Positions 13,803 to 40,993 of a stretch of DNA of 41,012 nucleotides are shown piece after piece (the first letter of the stretch is position 1; each line of letters begins with the position of its first letter). The DNA is from a bacterium. Its GTDB lineage: Bacteria; SM23-81; DAOVCL01. A program made the translations under genes and the position numbers. The stretch spans positions 1-41,012 of the forward strand of contig JAOZPP010000021.1 of the NCBI GenBank assembly GCA_029932675.1. Reading direction: 5' to 3'. The notes under the pieces were generated by a model, which saw nothing but the letters and a program-made list of their open reading frames with translations, ran no database searches and was not told the DNA's origin.

Positions 13803-14942
<1,140 letters not shown>

Positions 14943-26932: not shown

Positions 26933-27304
26933 ATGTATTATCTTACGGTAAAAAGTAGTTTTGCTGCTGCCCACCGGATTGTGGGCTATGAGGGTGCCTG
27001 TTCTCGATACCATGGCCACAACTTTAGCATCGAGGTGGAGGTGGAGGGGAAGGATTTAGATGAGTTGGGGATGGCCATGGATTTCAAAGAGCTGAAGGAG
27101 TTGGTGGATGGGGTAATCTCCGGACTTGACCACCAGGATCTGAACAGGTTCCCTCCCTTTCAAGAACTTAACCCCACCTCTGAATCCTTAGCCAAGTATA
27201 TTTACGATAAACTAAAGCCCTTGATTGAACCCCCCCTATCTCTGAGTTCGGTCACAGTATGGGAGACTAAGGGCTATAGGGTTACTTACCGGGAAAGTAG
27301 GTGA
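26933..27304 (+). CDS. queD: 6-carboxytetrahydropterin synthase QueD
   Basis: This 123-residue member of the 6-pyruvoyl-tetrahydropterin synthase family makes 6-carboxy-tetrahydropterin from dihydroneopterin triphosphate, the second step to preQ0. Zinc ligands are H14, H27 and H29 ('AAHRIVG', 'RYHGHNF') and the catalytic cysteine is C23, giving the C-x3-HGH pattern. 'AMDFKELKELV' and 'LDHQDLNRF...NPTSE' are the conserved lower elements. ATG 26933 has no strong ribosome binding site (AGCAGGTTCTG). The stop overlaps queE (GTGA). I see no convincing preQ1 riboswitch in the 131 bp upstream. Confidence 0.96.
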   Translation: MYYLTVKSSFAAAHRIVGYEGACSRYHGHNFSIEVEVEGKDLDELGMAMDFKELKELVDGVISGLDHQDLNRFPPFQELNPTSESLAKYIYDKLKPLIEPPLSLSSVTVWETKGYRVTYRESR

Positions 27305-27939
27305 AGTTTAGCGAAATATTCTATTCCATCCAAGGAGAGTCAAGCTGGGTTGGATCTCCCTGTACCTTTCTCCGGCTTTGGGGGTGTAACCTCCGCTGCT
27401 TGTGGTGTGACACGAAGTATTCCTACGAGGAGAAACCAATTGGTCTCACTTTGGCCCAGGTCCTCAGGAGGGTGGAGAGTTTCCCTGCTCAGTTGGTGGA
27501 GATCACCGGTGGGGAACCGCTTCTCCAAGAGGAGGTTTACCCCCTTATGGGGGAGCTTCTGCAGAGGGGATATAAGGTCCTCCTGGACACCAATGGTTCC
27601 TTGGACATAGGAGGGGTTCCCGAGGAGGTAATCCGGATTATAGACATAAAACCGCCAAAGAGTGGTATGTCGGAGAGAACAAAATGGGGGAATTTAGAGG
27701 AGCTCAGACCAACGGATGAGGTGAAGTTCGTCCTGGTGGACAGGGACGATTATCAATGGGCGAAGGGGATAACGGAAAGATACTCCCTTCTGAGGAGAGC
27801 AAGGGTTATCTTTTCACCGGCCAATGGATTTCTCTCACTGAGGGAACTGGCGGAGTGGATCCTCAGGGATGGACTTAAGGTGAGGCTCGGGTTTCAGTTG
27901 CAAAAGTTTATTTGGGAAAAAGGAACCAGGGGGCATTGA
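27301..27939 (+). CDS. queE: 7-carboxy-7-deazaguanine synthase QueE
   Basis: This 212-residue radical-SAM enzyme turns 6-carboxytetrahydropterin into 7-carboxy-7-deazaguanine. The 4Fe-4S ligands C29, C33 and C36 are in 'CNLRCLWC' (CxxxCxxC). 'SIQGESSWVGSPCTFLRLWG' (about residues 9-28) and 'EITGGEPLLQEE' (about 67-78) are conserved QueE segments. Start GTG 27301 overlaps the queD stop by 4 bp and the stop overlaps the queC start (TGATG), indicating one translationally coupled unit. Confidence 0.96.
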   Translation: MKFSEIFYSIQGESSWVGSPCTFLRLWGCNLRCLWCDTKYSYEEKPIGLTLAQVLRRVESFPAQLVEITGGEPLLQEEVYPLMGELLQRGYKVLLDTNGSLDIGGVPEEVIRIIDIKPPKSGMSERTKWGNLEELRPTDEVKFVLVDRDDYQWAKGITERYSLLRRARVIFSPANGFLSLRELAEWILRDGLKVRLGFQLQKFIWEKGTRGH

Positions 27940-28634
27940 TGGAGAGACCTTTGGGGATAGTGTTGGTCAGTGGGGGGATGGATAGCCTCGTTGCCCTCGC
28001 CATCGCCAATCAAACCCACCGATTGGCCCTCATCCATTTCAACTATGGCCAAAAGGCAGAGGGGAGGGAACTGGAGGCTTTCCATAGAATCTCCGAATTC
28101 TATAGGGCAGAACAGAGGCTCTCTGTTGATCTAAGTTATTGGAAGAAAATTGGTGGCACAAGTCTAATTGACCAGAATTCGGAGATTCCTTCCGGATTAT
28201 CAGATGGTATCCCCACTACCTATGTTCCCTTCCGTAATGCCCAGCTCGTCTCGGTAGCCGTATCCTGGGGTGAGGTGATTGGGGCGGAGGCAATATTTAT
28301 CGGGGCAGTAGAGGAAGACTCGGCAGGCTATCCAGATTGTCGAAGGGAGTTCTATACTGCCTTCAATCGGTTGATAGATTTAGGGACCAGACCTTCCACC
28401 TCTATGGAGGTTAAGACTCCCCTTATTGGAATGAAAAAGAACGAAATCGTCAAGTTAGGGGTTAGGCTAAAGGTCCCCTTTGAGCTCTCCTGGTCCTGTT
28501 ATCGAGGGGGACCAAAGTCCTGTGGACAATGTGATAGCTGCCTACGTAGGTTGAGAGCCTTTCGGGAGGCGGGCTATCCCGACCCATTGGAGTACGAGAA
28601 TAATCTCCTCAACGGGACCAGGGTAGGCGATTAA
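27939..28634 (+). CDS. queC: 7-cyano-7-deazaguanine (preQ0) synthase QueC
   Basis: This 231-residue ATP-dependent enzyme forms preQ0 from 7-carboxy-7-deazaguanine and ammonia. The PP-loop SGGMDS is at residues 11-16. The zinc site is the four-cysteine cluster 'SCYRGGPKSCGQCDSCLRR' (about residues 186-204). 'TYVPFRNAQLVSVAVSWGEV' is a conserved QueC helix. Start ATG 27939 is chosen because the family begins here and it overlaps the queE stop; a TTG 27 bp upstream would add non-conserved residues. folE2 starts 22 bp later. Confidence 0.96.
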   Translation: MERPLGIVLVSGGMDSLVALAIANQTHRLALIHFNYGQKAEGRELEAFHRISEFYRAEQRLSVDLSYWKKIGGTSLIDQNSEIPSGLSDGIPTTYVPFRNAQLVSVAVSWGEVIGAEAIFIGAVEEDSAGYPDCRREFYTAFNRLIDLGTRPSTSMEVKTPLIGMKKNEIVKLGVRLKVPFELSWSCYRGGPKSCGQCDSCLRRLRAFREAGYPDPLEYENNLLNGTRVGD

Positions 28635-28656
28635 AGATGAAGAGTGAGGGGGCCCG

Positions 28657-29433
28657 ATGAGGGACATCCAGAGCGAGGAAGATCAGCGGAGGATAGAGAT
28701 CGACAAAGTAGGGGTGAAGGAGTTGAGCTATCCGATAATTGTCTTGGATAGAGCCAACAAGCTTCAGCCCACAGTGGCTAAGGTGAATATGTTTGTCAAC
28801 CTTCCTCATCATTATCGAGGCACCCATATGAGCCGATTTGTGGAGATACTTAACCAGTATCGGGGCCAGATAACGATGAAGAATATGGGACCAATTCTGC
28901 GGAAGATGAGGGAAGTCTTTCAGGCCCAATCCGCTCATCTGGAGATTGATTTCCCCTATTTTATAGAAAAGGAAGCCCCGGTGAGTAGGTCAAAGTCTCT
29001 AATGAGCTATGGTTGTAGATTCATCGGGTCCTTAGACCAGAAGGAGGATTACATCCTTGAGGTGCGGGTGCCGGTAAATACCCTCTGTCCATGCTCTAAG
29101 GAGATTTCCGATCGAGGTGCACACAATCAAAGGGGAGAGGTGAGGCTACAGGTGAGGTTTAAGAAGTTTGTCTGGATAGAGGATTTGGTTGCCTTGGTGG
29201 AGGGGGCTGCTTCCAGTGGTCTCTACTCGTTGTTGAAGAGGGAAGATGAGAAGTGGGTAACAGAGAATGCCTATGATCACCCAACTTTTGTGGAAGATGT
29301 AGTCAGATCCGTGGCCGAGAAACTTTTGCCGGATAAAAACATAACCTGGTTTTCTGTGGAGGTGGAAAGCCAGGAGTCAATCCATAACCACAATGCCTAT
29401 GCCTTCTTGGAGAGGGGATCAAGGGATAATTAG
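28657..29433 (+). CDS. folE2: GTP cyclohydrolase FolE2 (type IB)
   Basis: This 258-residue protein converts GTP to dihydroneopterin triphosphate, the first step of both folate and preQ0 synthesis. Family motifs: 'RGTHMSRFVEIL' (about residues 54-65), 'VNTLCPCSKEISDRGAHNQRG' (metal site cysteine/histidine, about 140-159) and 'WFSVEVESQESIHNHNAYA' near the C-terminus. FolE2 is the metal-flexible alternative to FolE and is often used under zinc limitation. It closes the queD-queE-queC-folE2 unit, so this cluster supplies all enzymes from GTP to preQ0. ATG 28657 has a weak GAGGGGGCCCG ribosome binding site. Confidence 0.95.
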   Translation: MRDIQSEEDQRRIEIDKVGVKELSYPIIVLDRANKLQPTVAKVNMFVNLPHHYRGTHMSRFVEILNQYRGQITMKNMGPILRKMREVFQAQSAHLEIDFPYFIEKEAPVSRSKSLMSYGCRFIGSLDQKEDYILEVRVPVNTLCPCSKEISDRGAHNQRGEVRLQVRFKKFVWIEDLVALVEGAASSGLYSLLKREDEKWVTENAYDHPTFVEDVVRSVAEKLLPDKNITWFSVEVESQESIHNHNAYAFLERGSRDN

Positions 29434-29529
29434 CAGGCCTTGAAGATCCGGGAGGGAACAGCGTCAAGAGGGCTTGGGAGATGGAGGCAAATCTATTTTT
29501 TGAATTTTCTTAGAGAAAGGGACTTTCAT

Positions 29530-30408
29530 ATGAGGAAACCAATTTTAGGGTTGGTATTTTTAGCGCTTTTAGGATGTTCCCAGAGGGAGAAAGCCCCCAT
29601 TGGGATAATAAGTGCAATCCCAGAAGAGCTCAAACTAATGAGAGATTCTCTGGTTACGGTGGATGAGGTGAAGGTGGGGCCTTGGCAGTTTTGGGAAGGG
29701 ACCTGGAAAGGAAAAAGGGTGGTGCTTACCGTTGGGGGAGTGGGAAAGGTTAATGCAGCAGTTGTCACCAATCTCCTTGTGGATCATTTCCATCCACGGG
29801 CGATAATATTCTCTGGAATTGCCGGCGGAGTCCCTGATTCTGCCCAAATCGGTGACATAACCATCTCCTCTCAGGCCGTAGAGCATGATTTTGGAGCTAT
29901 TGTTCCAGTGGGAGGTGTGGAGGGAAGGGCTTATCCAGGCAACTCGGACCTCACCCGTGGTTTTGTTCCGTCCCCGGTTCCGGTAATGAAGGGTTCAACT
30001 ATGGTGGGGATAACCTACTTCCGTGCGGATAGTTTGCTCATAGAACTGGCCAAACGGGCCAGTGAAGAGGTTAAATTGCCTCCAATACCGCAGTTGAACC
30101 GCATCCCTCAGGTAAGGGTGGGGGTTGTAGCTACTGGTGATCAATTTATTGCCTCCTCCCAGAAGTGCAGATGGCTCTATCAAAGCTTCCATGCGCTCTC
30201 TACCGAGATGGAGGGAGGGGCGGTAGCCCAGGTGGCTACTACTTATGGGGTTCCCTGGGTTCTGATTAGGTGCAACTCTGATCGGGCCGATGAGGAAGCC
30301 CATCAGGTGATCAAGGAGTTTGGCACCTATGCTGCCCGTAATTCTGCTTCGATAGTCCTTAAACTAATTGAGCTGTTCCCCGATGGAGATAAGGCCCTTA
30401 AAAATTGA
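29530..30408 (+). CDS. Exported MTA/SAH nucleosidase-like (purine nucleosidase) lipoprotein
   Basis: From ATG 29530 this 292-residue protein has a lipoprotein signal 'MRKPILGLVFLALLGCSQRE' with lipobox LLGC and acylated C17. The mature part is a nucleoside phosphorylase-type fold: 'GIISAIPEELKLMRDSLV', 'LTVGGVGKVNAAVVTNLLVD', 'IIFSGIAGGVPDSAQIGD', and the catalytic-type 'STEMEGGAVAQVATTYGVPW' followed by 'RCNSDRADEEA' (general-acid aspartate). This is the MTA/SAH nucleosidase (Pfs) pattern. The cytosolic enzyme normally has no signal, so an anchored, exported form is unusual. I reject an upstream in-frame TTG start. The ribosome binding site is GAGAAAGGG. Confidence 0.82.
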   Translation: MRKPILGLVFLALLGCSQREKAPIGIISAIPEELKLMRDSLVTVDEVKVGPWQFWEGTWKGKRVVLTVGGVGKVNAAVVTNLLVDHFHPRAIIFSGIAGGVPDSAQIGDITISSQAVEHDFGAIVPVGGVEGRAYPGNSDLTRGFVPSPVPVMKGSTMVGITYFRADSLLIELAKRASEEVKLPPIPQLNRIPQVRVGVVATGDQFIASSQKCRWLYQSFHALSTEMEGGAVAQVATTYGVPWVLIRCNSDRADEEAHQVIKEFGTYAARNSASIVLKLIELFPDGDKALKN

Positions 30409-30811
30409 AGATTATGAGATTATCTTAAGGCTCTGGGATAAGGCTGGCCTCCCTTATAAACCACGCGGCAGGGACAGCTATGAGGAGATGAAGAGACAGA
30501 TGGAGAACGATCCTGATCTATTCTTAGGAGTTGAAGAGGATGGAAAACTGATTGGGGTCATAATTGCCACCTATGATGGACGTAAGGGATGGTTGAATAG
30601 GATAGCTGTCGACCCCGCATATAGGGGAAGGGGAATAGGTTTAATGCTCACCAGGGCAGGAGAAGAGGCATTGCGGAAAAGGGGGGCAAAAATAATTGCT
30701 CTTTTGGTGGAGAGGTCAAATCAAGCTTCCCTCAACCTTGCTCGCCAGGCCGGATATGTGGTTGCTCGAGACATTCTCTACCTTACTAAGAGGGAAAGTG
30801 AGGAGGTCTGA
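30383..30811 (+). CDS. GNAT acetyltransferase (RimI-like)
   Basis: This 142-residue protein begins at ATG 30383, inside the end of the upstream gene (26-bp overlap). 'MEIRPLKIEDYEIILRLW' is a typical GNAT start; the acetyl-CoA motif is 'VDPAYRGRGIGLMLTRAGEE' (about residues 77-96) and 'VERSNQASLNLARQAGYVVA' ends the domain. It resembles the small RimI/ArgA-like acetyltransferases that modify protein N-termini or amino groups of small molecules; the substrate is not evident. The stop overlaps the next start (TGATG at 30809-30813). Confidence 0.85.
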   Translation: MEIRPLKIEDYEIILRLWDKAGLPYKPRGRDSYEEMKRQMENDPDLFLGVEEDGKLIGVIIATYDGRKGWLNRIAVDPAYRGRGIGLMLTRAGEEALRKRGAKIIALLVERSNQASLNLARQAGYVVARDILYLTKRESEEV

Positions 30812-31353
30812 TGAGCAGTCTTGCTGATTTCTTGAAGGAGATAGCAAAGGGGATCAAAAAGGGTATGGAGGACAGGAAAGAGAGGACCCTTACTGTCCTT
30901 TGGGAGGATGGCACCCTGGTAAAGAGGGTAAGGGTTAGGGGCGAGGGAGAGGAGATTAATATATCCGAGATAATGATGGAGGTGCACTGTGACCGCAGGC
31001 GTCCTTCCAGGCTCAAGAACAAGGAGTTAAACATCACCCTAAAACAGGAAGGGCAAATCCTCTTCCAGGGGTTGACCACTGGGGTCAATGAAAATGGTTT
31101 GGGAGCAAGGATAAATCCGATTCATCCACAGGTTAAGCGAGTCCGCAATAGAGATCTCTTGGGAAAGGAATTTATTGTTTATCTGGAAATTCCAGGCCTA
31201 CCCATTAGTCCCACTAAGGGGGAGGTGATCTTTGTGGAAAGGTGTAAGGACCCCGGATTTAAGAAATTTGTGGCCATTAAATTTCTCTTTGTCTCCCCAG
31301 TAGATAAAAAAAATTTACGGGACTATATTCACAGTTTACAGGGGATAGATTAG
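30811..31353 (+). CDS. Possible PilZ-like domain protein
   Basis: This 180-residue protein has no signal peptide. The N-terminal part (about residues 1-75) is charged; 'CDRRRPSRLKNKELNI' (about 59-74) could be the RxxxR ligand loop, and 'LTTGVNENGLGARINP' with 'PGLPISPTKGEVIFVERCKD' followed by a 'FKKFVAIKFLFVS..DKKNLRDYI' ending resembles PilZ-type beta-barrels that bind cyclic di-GMP. The DxSxxG motif is imperfect (V-N-E-N-G-L), so c-di-GMP binding is doubtful. It is tightly coupled to the GNAT gene (TGATG). I am not certain of the family. Confidence 0.5.
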   Translation: MSSLADFLKEIAKGIKKGMEDRKERTLTVLWEDGTLVKRVRVRGEGEEINISEIMMEVHCDRRRPSRLKNKELNITLKQEGQILFQGLTTGVNENGLGARINPIHPQVKRVRNRDLLGKEFIVYLEIPGLPISPTKGEVIFVERCKDPGFKKFVAIKFLFVSPVDKKNLRDYIHSLQGID

Positions 31354-37768: not shown

Positions 37769-40700
37769 TTACTTGAGGAGGATCATCCTCCTGGTTTGCA
37801 CAAAATCTCCTGCTCGAATCCGGTATATGTATATCCCACTGGCCAACTCCCTGCCGGCATTGTCCCTTCCATCCCACCTCACCGAGTAGTAGCCAGGAGT
37901 TTGTGGCTCATCCACCAGCGTCCTCACCACTTGCCCCAAGATATTGTAAATCCTTAGGCTAACCGCCCATCGCTTTTGACGATCTACGGGTAACGAGTAA
38001 CGAATCACAGTAGTAGAGTTGAAGGGGTTGGGATAGTTCTGGCCCAGGGAGAAGTGGTCGGGTAAAAATGGCTGGATAGTTGTTTCTATCCCTACAGGGG
38101 GCTGTGAGAGCCAAGGTTCATAGTCCACCGGCCCATAGAACCAAGATGGATCTGGCGGTGAGCTGCCCCACCAGTTGTTCTCCGCCTTTATGGTTTCACT
38201 CACCCCCTCACAATATACCGCATATTGGGGAGAACAGAGGCCAAGGGTGATGCTGTTGTAACCAGTCCCCGGGATGAGGGAATCACCCAACAGAGGATAA
38301 CTTTCGTAACAGGCTACACCAATATCTCTGTAATCGGAGATATCGTTGTTAGAGACCGTTGGTTTAGACCCTGCATATAGGGCTATCCCTACAAGGTTTC
38401 TGTCCAAAATCTGATCCTGGTAGTCTGTCCCCTTGATTACGGTTGTAGAATCAAGGCTTACTCCTACTATGCCATAATAACCACCAGTTATTTGGTTGCC
38501 CACTATCTGGGCTGAGGCATTCTCCATATATATCCCAGTAGTTGCTGTGGTATCTCCTTCGCTGGGTATGTCACACTCAAGGACAGGCATAGCAATGGTA
38601 TTGCCGCTGATGGTCACCTGCCTTTCCGGGGAATCTCCCACCACCTTGATGGCACAATCCCGATTGGAATAACAAGAGAAATCGTTTCCGATGATATATG
38701 GAGAACAGTTCTCGGTGTAGATATCGTAAACATCGTTGGCAGAGAAAGTATTGCCAGCGATATAGAGATCATCGGTGGCACAACCTCTTATACCATAAAC
38801 CAGATCGTCCTTGATGGTGCAGGAGGTAATATGCCCCTCTTGGGCTGAGTCGAAGCTTATCCCACAATATCCGTCCTTGATAGTGGCGTTCTCAATTGTG
38901 GCAAAGCCTCCACTTTTCACCCTTATCCCATACCAGCTCCCTGGCCCGGCATCCGAGGAGAAGTATATCCGGTAAGGATCACCCACGGCATTAAGGCTCC
39001 CCTCCACGATTAGCTCACAGAGGTTTGGATCCGCACCAGAGTCCAGATTGTCCTCCCCCGCGGTGAACTCGATTTGTGCTCCTGGCTGGATGGTGAGCGT
39101 AATGCCTGAAGGGACGGTGACATCTCCGCAGACAAAGACGTTCTTCGGCCAGGTCTGGCTTTCAACAAGCTCCCCTGAGATGACTTTGGCCTGATAAGGT
39201 ATGTAGTTGGGGGCAGTAACCGTAACCTCCAAAGCTCCTGGAGAAGAGAAGGAGGGATAGAAGATAGTCCGACCGTTGATATCTGCATATTTCCGGTCAT
39301 AATATCTTTCGCTTTCTTTCCATAAACAGACCAACGCACCAGGAATTCCTGTTTCCACAGTGAAGCGATTCGGTCCCAACTGATAAGAATGAGGGTGAGA
39401 AACGATCATACTCTGTGGTTGTGTAATCCACACAGGCATACTCGGGTCCCCTAACAAACTTAGTGATTGTAGGCAATAAATATCAATCATATAGAAAACG
39501 CCTTCCTCTAAATCATGTAAGGGATACGAGTTCTTGGCCTTTTCTAAGGCCCAACCAACTGTCTTTGAAGGATCCTGAAAGAGACTGGAAAAGAACAGTT
39601 TATCGAGCAGACAAGAGAAATCTAAGTGACCCCTCATACCGGCTCCGATCCCACTGTTTCCAACATAAGCAACACCACCACCATGAGGATTGGTAAGCCA
39701 ATGTTTACCAAAACAGACTGTCAAACTTGGGTCAATGTAAAAATACATACCGCTGGGGGCAGTATTATCACATTTACACCAAATGGCTGTATCCATGGCA
39801 GCGCTCAAACAAGAAAATGAAACGAACAATCCGTATTTCAATCCATTGCTTAGAGTATCCAGGTCCATAACATCGAGGGACTGATGAGCATTATGCTCAG
39901 GATCAATAGAGATAGAACCCCAGTATCCGTGCCCACCGTGATTGATCAGAAAGTAACCATCCTTCAGCTCGTTCATGGCCTGAGCGTGGTCAATCCGCAA
40001 ATGCTCAAATGGTCCGTCACAGAGGTCGTATGTATCGTCGTAAAGCCTGAAACAACTGGGCTCTCCAGGAAGATCCACAACCACGCTATCCTTGAGGAAA
40101 CCTGCCTCTATGTCGCAACGTCCGAACAGGTAGGCACCCATAAGGAGGAATTGATCGTTTGTGTAGTCAGGAGGAGGGTTTTGCTGATAGGTCAAAACCT
40201 TGTTAACAAAAACCTCTGCTTCCTTTTTGTCTGAGACTGAGGAACGACCTACAGATAAATCTGCATAATAATCAATGAAAAAAGCTTCAGGTAGGGGCCA
40301 ACCATTTATGCTATCAACAGCACCACACCAGTCGCTATAATACCCGTTGCCGTCCATATCCCAAGTCCCATCAAGCGCTGCATAATAATGATCACTCTTC
40401 ATGGTTGGAACACTTTTACCATAAAGATACCAGTGACAGCCAATTGCACTCCTCCTAGCCGGAACATTAGCCGGGTTTCCTCCAATAAGGATATATTCAG
40501 TTCCAAAACTTGCCTGGTCTTTAATAAAGTTCCTGATCTTCTGGGGATTGTCCAAACCTGGCCAATATTGATAGATAGAGTCCAGATCAACAATGGCTGT
40601 CCTCAGACCCCGTCTGGTGTTCCAGCTAACCAGAGGCTGGAATGTGGTGGCCAGCGAATCGGGTGTGATGATAACACAGGCCCAAACAGCATTAGCAGGA

Positions 40701-40993
40701 ACTATTTGAGGATTAGGACCAAAAATGGTCACCTGTTCTGGGTTTTCCACCATCTCCTGGGTCATACTGGTATAGAAATCATGAGTATACTGGGTTCTTC
40801 TTTCAATGGGCAAAGACCAGTCCTCAGCGCTCTCCAGCTCTAAGGTAAAGCTGATAGAAGTGTAAAGGAAAAGCTTTCCTGTAGCCGGAATATATTGGAG
40901 AGGGTAGAAGTGGACATTGGCTATTTTGGTGCCAGCAAAGAACCCCTCGTATCCTGACTTTAACCCGACTTTCGCTTTTCTATTTAGCGTCAA
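37769..40993 (-). CDS. Gingipain-like (C25) cysteine peptidase with beta-helix and FlgD-like tail, 5' part missing
   Basis: This 1074-residue secreted-type protein lacks a signal peptide, so its 5' part is absent. Domains: residues about 1-95, a propeptide-like 'GYEGFFAGTKIANVHFYPLQ' region; about 100-530, the C25 catalytic domain with 'YILIGGNPANVPARRS' (near 168), the catalytic histidine in 'INHGGHGYWG' (H355) and the catalytic cysteine in 'FVSFSCLSAA' (C395). A right-handed parallel beta-helix spans roughly 620-930 ('GNTFSANDVYDIYTENCSPY'), and a FlgD-type Ig-like sorting domain about 985-1074 ('LGQNYPNPFNSTTVIRYSLP' to '...RTRRMILLK'-like end). This is probably an outer-surface protease. 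An in-frame stop at 41004-41006 precedes the first usable codon. A terminator sits downstream. Confidence 0.85.
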   Translation of the reverse strand: MTLNRKAKVGLKSGYEGFFAGTKIANVHFYPLQYIPATGKLFLYTSISFTLELESAEDWSLPIERRTQYTHDFYTSMTQEMVENPEQVTIFGPNPQIVPANAVWACVIITPDSLATTFQPLVSWNTRRGLRTAIVDLDSIYQYWPGLDNPQKIRNFIKDQASFGTEYILIGGNPANVPARRSAIGCHWYLYGKSVPTMKSDHYYAALDGTWDMDGNGYYSDWCGAVDSINGWPLPEAFFIDYYADLSVGRSSVSDKKEAEVFVNKVLTYQQNPPPDYTNDQFLLMGAYLFGRCDIEAGFLKDSVVVDLPGEPSCFRLYDDTYDLCDGPFEHLRIDHAQAMNELKDGYFLINHGGHGYWGSISIDPEHNAHQSLDVMDLDTLSNGLKYGLFVSFSCLSAAMDTAIWCKCDNTAPSGMYFYIDPSLTVCFGKHWLTNPHGGGVAYVGNSGIGAGMRGHLDFSCLLDKLFFSSLFQDPSKTVGWALEKAKNSYPLHDLEEGVFYMIDIYCLQSLSLLGDPSMPVWITQPQSMIVSHPHSYQLGPNRFTVETGIPGALVCLWKESERYYDRKYADINGRTIFYPSFSSPGALEVTVTAPNYIPYQAKVISGELVESQTWPKNVFVCGDVTVPSGITLTIQPGAQIEFTAGEDNLDSGADPNLCELIVEGSLNAVGDPYRIYFSSDAGPGSWYGIRVKSGGFATIENATIKDGYCGISFDSAQEGHITSCTIKDDLVYGIRGCATDDLYIAGNTFSANDVYDIYTENCSPYIIGNDFSCYSNRDCAIKVVGDSPERQVTISGNTIAMPVLECDIPSEGDTTATTGIYMENASAQIVGNQITGGYYGIVGVSLDSTTVIKGTDYQDQILDRNLVGIALYAGSKPTVSNNDISDYRDIGVACYESYPLLGDSLIPGTGYNSITLGLCSPQYAVYCEGVSETIKAENNWWGSSPPDPSWFYGPVDYEPWLSQPPVGIETTIQPFLPDHFSLGQNYPNPFNSTTVIRYSLPVDRQKRWAVSLRIYNILGQVVRTLVDEPQTPGYYSVRWDGRDNAGRELASGIYIYRIRAGDFVQTRRMILLK

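Follow-up and report, generated by a model that had tools for sequence, protein, structure and literature searches.

MTA/SAH nucleosidase (MTAN) is normally an intracellular enzyme that splits adenine off the by-products of used methyl donor, and it is mostly treated as a housekeeping enzyme of the cytosol and as a target for antibiotics. Exported MTANs have already been published from Aeromonas, Borrelia and Acinetobacter, so export as such is not new. According to the available text of PMC7557402, most bacteria have a single, cytoplasmic MTAN. The same text describes Bgp and MtnN of Borrelia burgdorferi as exported, active on MTA and possible suppliers of adenine. Both carry a signal peptide, a feature that is also predicted for the protein analysed here, but Bgp doubles as an adhesin that binds glycosaminoglycans, and Borrelia has a third enzyme, Pfs, which is cytoplasmic; the word lipoprotein is absent from the main text of that paper. 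The Aeromonas hydrophila enzyme (PDB entries 5b7p and 5b7q and, by sequence, 5b7g) is likewise non-cytosolic and is called periplasmic in the PDB title. The available text of PMC6302742, which cites the study of this periplasmic enzyme (Xu et al. 2017), gives Aeromonas a cytoplasmic MTAN as well. The fold of the periplasmic enzyme is like that of our protein (Z 29.5 over 242 residues), but the two are 26–27% identical and its profile score is lower than those of the cytosolic MTANs compared; given this identity and the lower score, it probably belongs to another branch. In Acinetobacter baumannii, an MTA/SAH nucleosidase was the most differentially identified protein in a type II secretion screen (PMC9245377, as far as its available text goes); it acts outside the cytosol, as is predicted for our protein, but as a putative type II secretion effector. 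The Acinetobacter MTANs in the plasmid collection are about 26% identical to ours over 80% and may differ from the secreted protein.

What look less familiar are a predicted lipid anchor and, among related bacteria, the connection with an adenine importer. No lipidated MTAN was found in the literature searched, where PMC10326533, in its available text, uses all the terms without connecting them. Likewise, no mention of a link between an exported MTAN and an adenine permease was found in the literature covered, which excludes most subscription journals.

The gene described here lies in a 41,012-nucleotide stretch of bacterial DNA (the window). One genome of the same genus was found, the sister L004, whose protein is 82–83% identical. 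Judged by sequence, the distinctive features of the window protein are that it is a predicted lipoprotein, that it has an enlarged loop and that it is the only MTAN found in its own genome. With a probability of about two in three, we infer that it is a periplasm-facing lipoprotein that hydrolyses external nucleosides so that adenine can be imported. The nucleosidase would be exported by Sec and cut by LspA before C16, giving a lipid-anchored enzyme that most likely faces the periplasm. There it would hydrolyse MTA, SAH and 5′-deoxyadenosine to adenine and a 5-modified ribose. The adenine would then enter through an AzgA-type permease, encoded on another contig in its own genome and adjoining the nucleosidase gene in many relatives, and intracellular SAH would be handled separately by adenosylhomocysteinase.

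Table 1 Features of the nucleosidase locus, in window positions; residue numbers are those of the nucleosidase.
Feature	Position	Strand	Basis or remark
FolE2/GCHY-1, last gene of a queD-queE-queC-folE2 run (26933–29433)	28657..29433	+	96 bp upstream of the nucleosidase gene; Pfam/NCBIfam scans
AAAGGGA, weak ribosome-binding-like site	29516..29522	+	7 nt before ATG 29530, by eye
Predicted exported MTA/SAH nucleosidase CDS (PNP_UDP_1/MTAN family)	29530..30408	+	ATG 29530, 292 aa, stop ends 30408
Predicted lipoprotein signal peptide, residues 1–15 (MRKPILGLVFLALLG)	29530..29574	+	Sequence; own screen; kept in sister L004
Lipobox L13-L14-G15-C16, predicted LspA cleavage before C16, Ser next	29566..29577	+	Sequence; L-M-G-C-S at the same place in the sister; LspA in genome
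E33, equivalent of MTAN E12	29626..29628	+	Aligned with E12 of Vibrio cholerae MTAN (4wkb)
Enlarged loop, residues 121–163	29890..30018	+	43 residues between D120 and F164, counted on the 35-row alignment
E226-M227-E228-G229 motif	30205..30216	+	Sequence and 35-row alignment
S250-D251, catalytic aspartate motif	30277..30282	+	Sequence, V. cholerae MTAN alignment, 35-row alignment
GNAT acetyltransferase	30383..30811	+	ATG 30383 lies within the nucleosidase gene, giving a 26-bp overlap; scanned from codon 2

The preliminary description of this DNA had the coordinates and frame of the gene right; the open reading frame is real, with 292 residues. Its reading of a complete nucleosidase with intact EMEG and catalytic aspartate is borne out by MTAN equivalog scores over their cut-offs, aligned motifs and a matched fold. 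The protein matches PF01048 with 161.2 bits (Pfam cut-off 25.1) and passes two NCBIfam MTAN equivalogs, NF004079 (200.6 bits, cut-off 169) and TIGR01704 (126.7 bits, cut-off 73.8). By alignment the MTAN active-site residues are present as E33, F206, E226-M227-E228-G229, R247 and S250-D251, whose roles we take to be those of the E. coli MTAN residues. F206, M227, E228, R247 and D251 are invariant across a 35-row alignment, E33, E226, G229 and S250 are nearly so, and the MTAN catalytic set (Glu, Glu-Met-Glu, Asp) is complete in E33, E226-M227-E228 and D251. An AlphaFold2 model (mean pLDDT 85) gives Z scores of 27 to 31.5 against solved bacterial MTANs and of about 25 against plant MTAN and purine nucleoside phosphorylases. 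By predicted family, fold and catalytic residues the gene is an MTA/SAH nucleosidase, and hydrolysis of MTA and SAH is predicted.

The protein begins MRKPILGLVFLALLGCSQ, with a lipobox at A12-L13-L14-G15-C16, and the stretch MRKPILGLVFLALLG-C16-SQ passes from a basic start through a hydrophobic core to the lipobox. Under our own pattern rules for lipobox and hydropathy, an n-region, an h-region and a lipobox Cys near residue 16 are found, as in a lipoprotein, and the nucleosidase gene is the only one of 145 six-frame ORF regions of the window to carry the lipobox pattern. In the same screen the pattern arose by chance in 23 of 20,000 shuffles of the first 40 residues and in 25 of 20,000 random N-termini of the same composition, or about 0.1%. 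The core and lipobox of the sister protein read VLVILALMG-C-SQ, with ALMGC in place of the ALLGC of the window, and its N-terminus passes the same screen when read from a TTG start. The signal peptide and LLGC lipobox proposed in the preliminary description thus stand as a pattern that seldom arises by chance and that the sister shares. The own genome encodes LspA. The window also carries the diderm envelope genes bamA, ompH, lpxD, lpxC-fabZ and lpxA, so an outer membrane and a periplasm should exist. In E. coli, Ser after the lipobox Cys directs outer-membrane sorting, and by that rule the Ser following C16 suggests the same destination for the nucleosidase.

The main uncertainty about the substrate lies in loop 121–163, which is 43 residues long in the window protein, 26 in SM23_81 (L075, the same as G003), a phylum relative of the window genome, and 20 in the ordinary relative L041. 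Within it, pLDDT falls under 50 at residues 124–144 and 151–159. In MTANs this loop region contributes to the 5′ pocket; since it is both enlarged and poorly modelled here, the substrate could differ. An exported lipoprotein that acts in nature on some other nucleoside, such as a modified purine nucleoside with a possible tie to the upstream queuosine genes, is unlikely, although it deserves some weight. Besides the loop length and the low model confidence there, it can draw on the preQ0 genes upstream in the window and, in the sister, on a FolE2 frame upstream of the nucleosidase, preceded by the end of a queC-like frame (by eye). Against it, the MTAN equivalog cut-off is exceeded and the catalytic set is intact. 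Moreover, the FolE2/queuosine neighbourhood is absent from the SM23_81 stretch, where the neighbours of the nucleosidase look like biotin carrier/carboxylase and thiolase genes (named by eye), and the gap between FolE2 and the nucleosidase, 96 bp in the window, is longer in the sister. A functional tie to the queuosine genes was rejected: only the window genome and its sister show this neighbourhood, and the SM23_81 stretch lacks it.

The inventory of the own genome (3.03 Mb in 116 contigs, 97% complete, which leaves room for a missed gene) includes two PF01048 genes, the window nucleosidase and an inosine/guanosine phosphorylase; no second MTAN was found in it. An adenosylhomocysteinase and a 5′-deoxyadenosine deaminase (NF005557, 547.3 bits over 522) are present and, by their predicted functions, can handle intracellular SAH and 5′-deoxyadenosine, respectively. 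Neither the MqnA/MqnD family (PF02621) nor an AdoMet decarboxylase was found in this genome, so a cytosolic MTAN would be needed neither for a futalosine step nor for MTA derived from spermidine synthesis. A role of the window protein as futalosine hydrolase or aminodeoxyfutalosine nucleosidase was rejected on the same lack of MqnA/MqnD and on a TIGR03664 score of 85.9, below 124.7. The genome encodes one PF00860 permease; at E 0.01 its sequence matches nothing in the PDB but the AZG1/AZG2 adenine/guanine permeases. No PF00860 permease gene occurs within the 41 kb window; the gene pair of exported MTAN and AzgA-type permease is not found at this locus, the permease being on another contig.

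Among 386 genomes, 16, with the own genome counted, gave a profile match at E 1e-35 or better; of these matches, L032 (G299) and L033 (G032), whose gene is broken, entered neither the tree nor the counts. A single-protein scan of genome contigs found no relative. In the named genome collection, the best 80 of 503 relatives form the compared loci. Signal calls follow our own rules (script and hand reading): the script had placed L042, L056 and L061 in the no-signal class and hand reading put them in the exported class, and L099, a possible membrane anchor, was counted as not exported. On these calls, 23 loci among the best 80 of 503 relatives have a signal-like N-terminus, from Bacteroidota, Planctomycetota, a Sumerlaeota MAG and the candidate Zixibacteria SM23_81. 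The MTANs of SM23_81, Spirosoma, Dyadobacter and Planctomycetota share with the window protein a predicted signal peptide, a loop longer than ordinary and a related C-terminal stretch. The predicted exported relatives differ from it in the lipobox, which within the same 80 fits only one of the 23 (L080, Phycisphaerales) and none of the 57 others; outside the genus, comparative support for the predicted lipid anchor is little. Leaving the window aside, 14 genomes were picked for searching from the 28 exported rows; in each of them the exported gene alone gives a strong MTAN match (E 7.4e-88 or better), and weaker ones (E 7e-22 and worse) turn up in five. Adenosylhomocysteinase was found in 15 of 15 exported-MTAN genomes (the own genome and these 14) versus 8 of the 13 genomes searched whose MTAN is not exported (14 picked from 64 rows; L112 left out), which makes it a weak marker of exported MTAN, and it was set aside as such.

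An all-against-all comparison of neighbours gave one widely recurrent partner, which was a PF00860 permease in the five examples scanned. When all 80 loci (best 80 of 503) were scanned with stop-to-stop frames, the permease was found in 16 of the 23 exported loci versus none of the 57 others; since the loci are mutually related and the comparison group is mostly Bacillota, a Fisher test on these counts overstates their independence. Collapsed by genus or MAG, 10 of 17 exported groups in this set have it. It lies on the same strand as the nucleosidase gene, which it precedes in 13 Bacteroidota loci and follows in 3 Planctomycetota loci of the best 80 of 503, and within about 155 bp of the nucleosidase frame in 15 listed loci; two linked permeases compared with the PDB both match AZG1/AZG2. 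The permease is absent from 7 of the 23 exported loci of the same 80, SM23_81 among them, with some neighbours out of view in loci under 9 kb (two of these seven, L056 and L063, and 14 of the 57 non-exported). It is also absent from all five plasmid-collection loci fetched; in three of these (L127, L128 and L129) the N-terminus, read by eye, resembles a signal.

The preliminary description had the enzyme exported and acting on extracellular nucleosides, perhaps in salvage or in signalling. Several findings favour export and salvage: (i) the lipobox is kept in the sister, (ii) LspA is present, (iii) relatives carry predicted signals, and (iv) an AzgA-type permease gene adjoins the nucleosidase gene in many of them. 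A salvage role is plausible, and the signalling part found no support here. That the exported enzyme serves to remove or make an extracellular signal, by destroying MTA or by yielding S-ribosylhomocysteine for AI-2-like chemistry, and not to feed the cell, is improbable: MTA has been suggested as a possible signal beside the periplasmic Aeromonas enzyme (PMC6302742, available text), but the permease gene linked to the nucleosidase gene in relatives speaks for the uptake of nutrients.

Many deep branches of the nucleosidase trees are weakly supported. By tree path, the nearest rows to the window protein outside the genus are three signal-less proteins, L026–L028. As to a single origin of export, a group of 28 rows (27 exported and L044, with L035, L036, L037 and L096 left out) was not rejected as one side of a branch by the AU test (p 0.763), but the exported label changes four times in one free tree and twice in the free tree of the AU test for this group. 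L044 (Cytophagales) is nested among exported proteins and has neither signal nor permease.

We consider it very improbable that the window protein is a cytosolic MTAN with a mis-assigned start and a hydrophobic N-terminus that is not a signal. The lack of a second MTAN in the own genome and the signal-less nearest tree neighbours would fit such an enzyme. The in-frame starts of the gene are ATG1, TTG8 and then ATG37, and in-frame codon reading gives no ATG, GTG or TTG between codons 8 and 37. A start downstream of residue 20, named at the outset as the way to a cytosolic protein, would thus fall at ATG37 and, by model and alignment, cost the protein strand 1 (residues 24–28) and E33; the rare-start codons ATT, ATA and ATC at 24, 26, 27 and 30 remain in favour of this alternative, but the lipobox and hydrophobic stretch kept in the sister argue against it. 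Least probable of all is an exported enzyme held in the inner membrane by an uncleaved signal anchor and not lipidated. In its favour, 22 of the 23 exported relatives (best 80 of 503) do not fit the lipobox pattern; against it, the window protein has a textbook lipobox with Ser as the next residue, the sister retains it, and LspA is present.

The lipoprotein that hydrolyses external nucleosides for adenine import may belong to a broader pattern, which we put forward tentatively and at somewhat less than even odds. Several lineages (the candidate phylum of the window, Cytophagales-type Bacteroidota, Planctomycetota and Sumerlaeota) may have moved their only MTAN outside the cytosol and left intracellular SAH to adenosylhomocysteinase. 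In many of them, the exported enzyme and an AzgA-type permease would form a dedicated module for scavenging adenine, the source being MTA, SAH or 5′-deoxyadenosine that other organisms release, and here the enzyme would also be tethered as a lipoprotein. In several genomes, as far as they were searched, the one strong MTAN is predicted to lie outside the cytosol, and in many of these its gene adjoins that of an adenine/guanine-type permease. If this reading is true, a dedicated protein pair would draw on adenine nucleosides in the environment that remain from methylation, polyamine and radical-SAM chemistry. The pairing occurs in cultured genera such as Spirosoma and Dyadobacter, which makes it genetically testable.

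Several further observations were made in the window and among the relatives. In the sister L004, the region around 1447–1495 has no ATG at the signal peptide; there is an ATC behind AAGGAGG, or an upstream TTG or GTG, and a rare start or an assembly error is possible. The window that holds queD-queE-queC-folE2 also has a tRNA-guanine transglycosylase (TGT) gene at 13809–14942. A 180-residue protein encoded at 30811–31353 has no Pfam/NCBIfam match, and a similar frame occurs in the sister. On the minus strand, 37769–40993 encodes a large protein with a C25 (gingipain-type) peptidase domain and a right-handed beta helix, with weak type IX secretion-like C-terminal matches; the phylum relative of the genome is a candidate Zixibacteria MAG. 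In G032 (L009/L019/L033), an exported-type nucleosidase gene is split over two frames, by a real break or an assembly error, and a separate reverse-transcriptase-like ORF, named by eye, lies nearby. The open frames of two exported nucleosidases, in L025 (1480–2724) and L107 (5001–6467), are much longer, at 415 and 489 aa when counted from the start that was chosen, and extend the protein at its C-terminus. In Agrobacterium plasmids (plasmid-collection hits H78–H90 and H97) there is a stretch that distantly resembles the nucleosidase; in 13 of the 14 records the gene that contains it bears the annotation HNH endonuclease.
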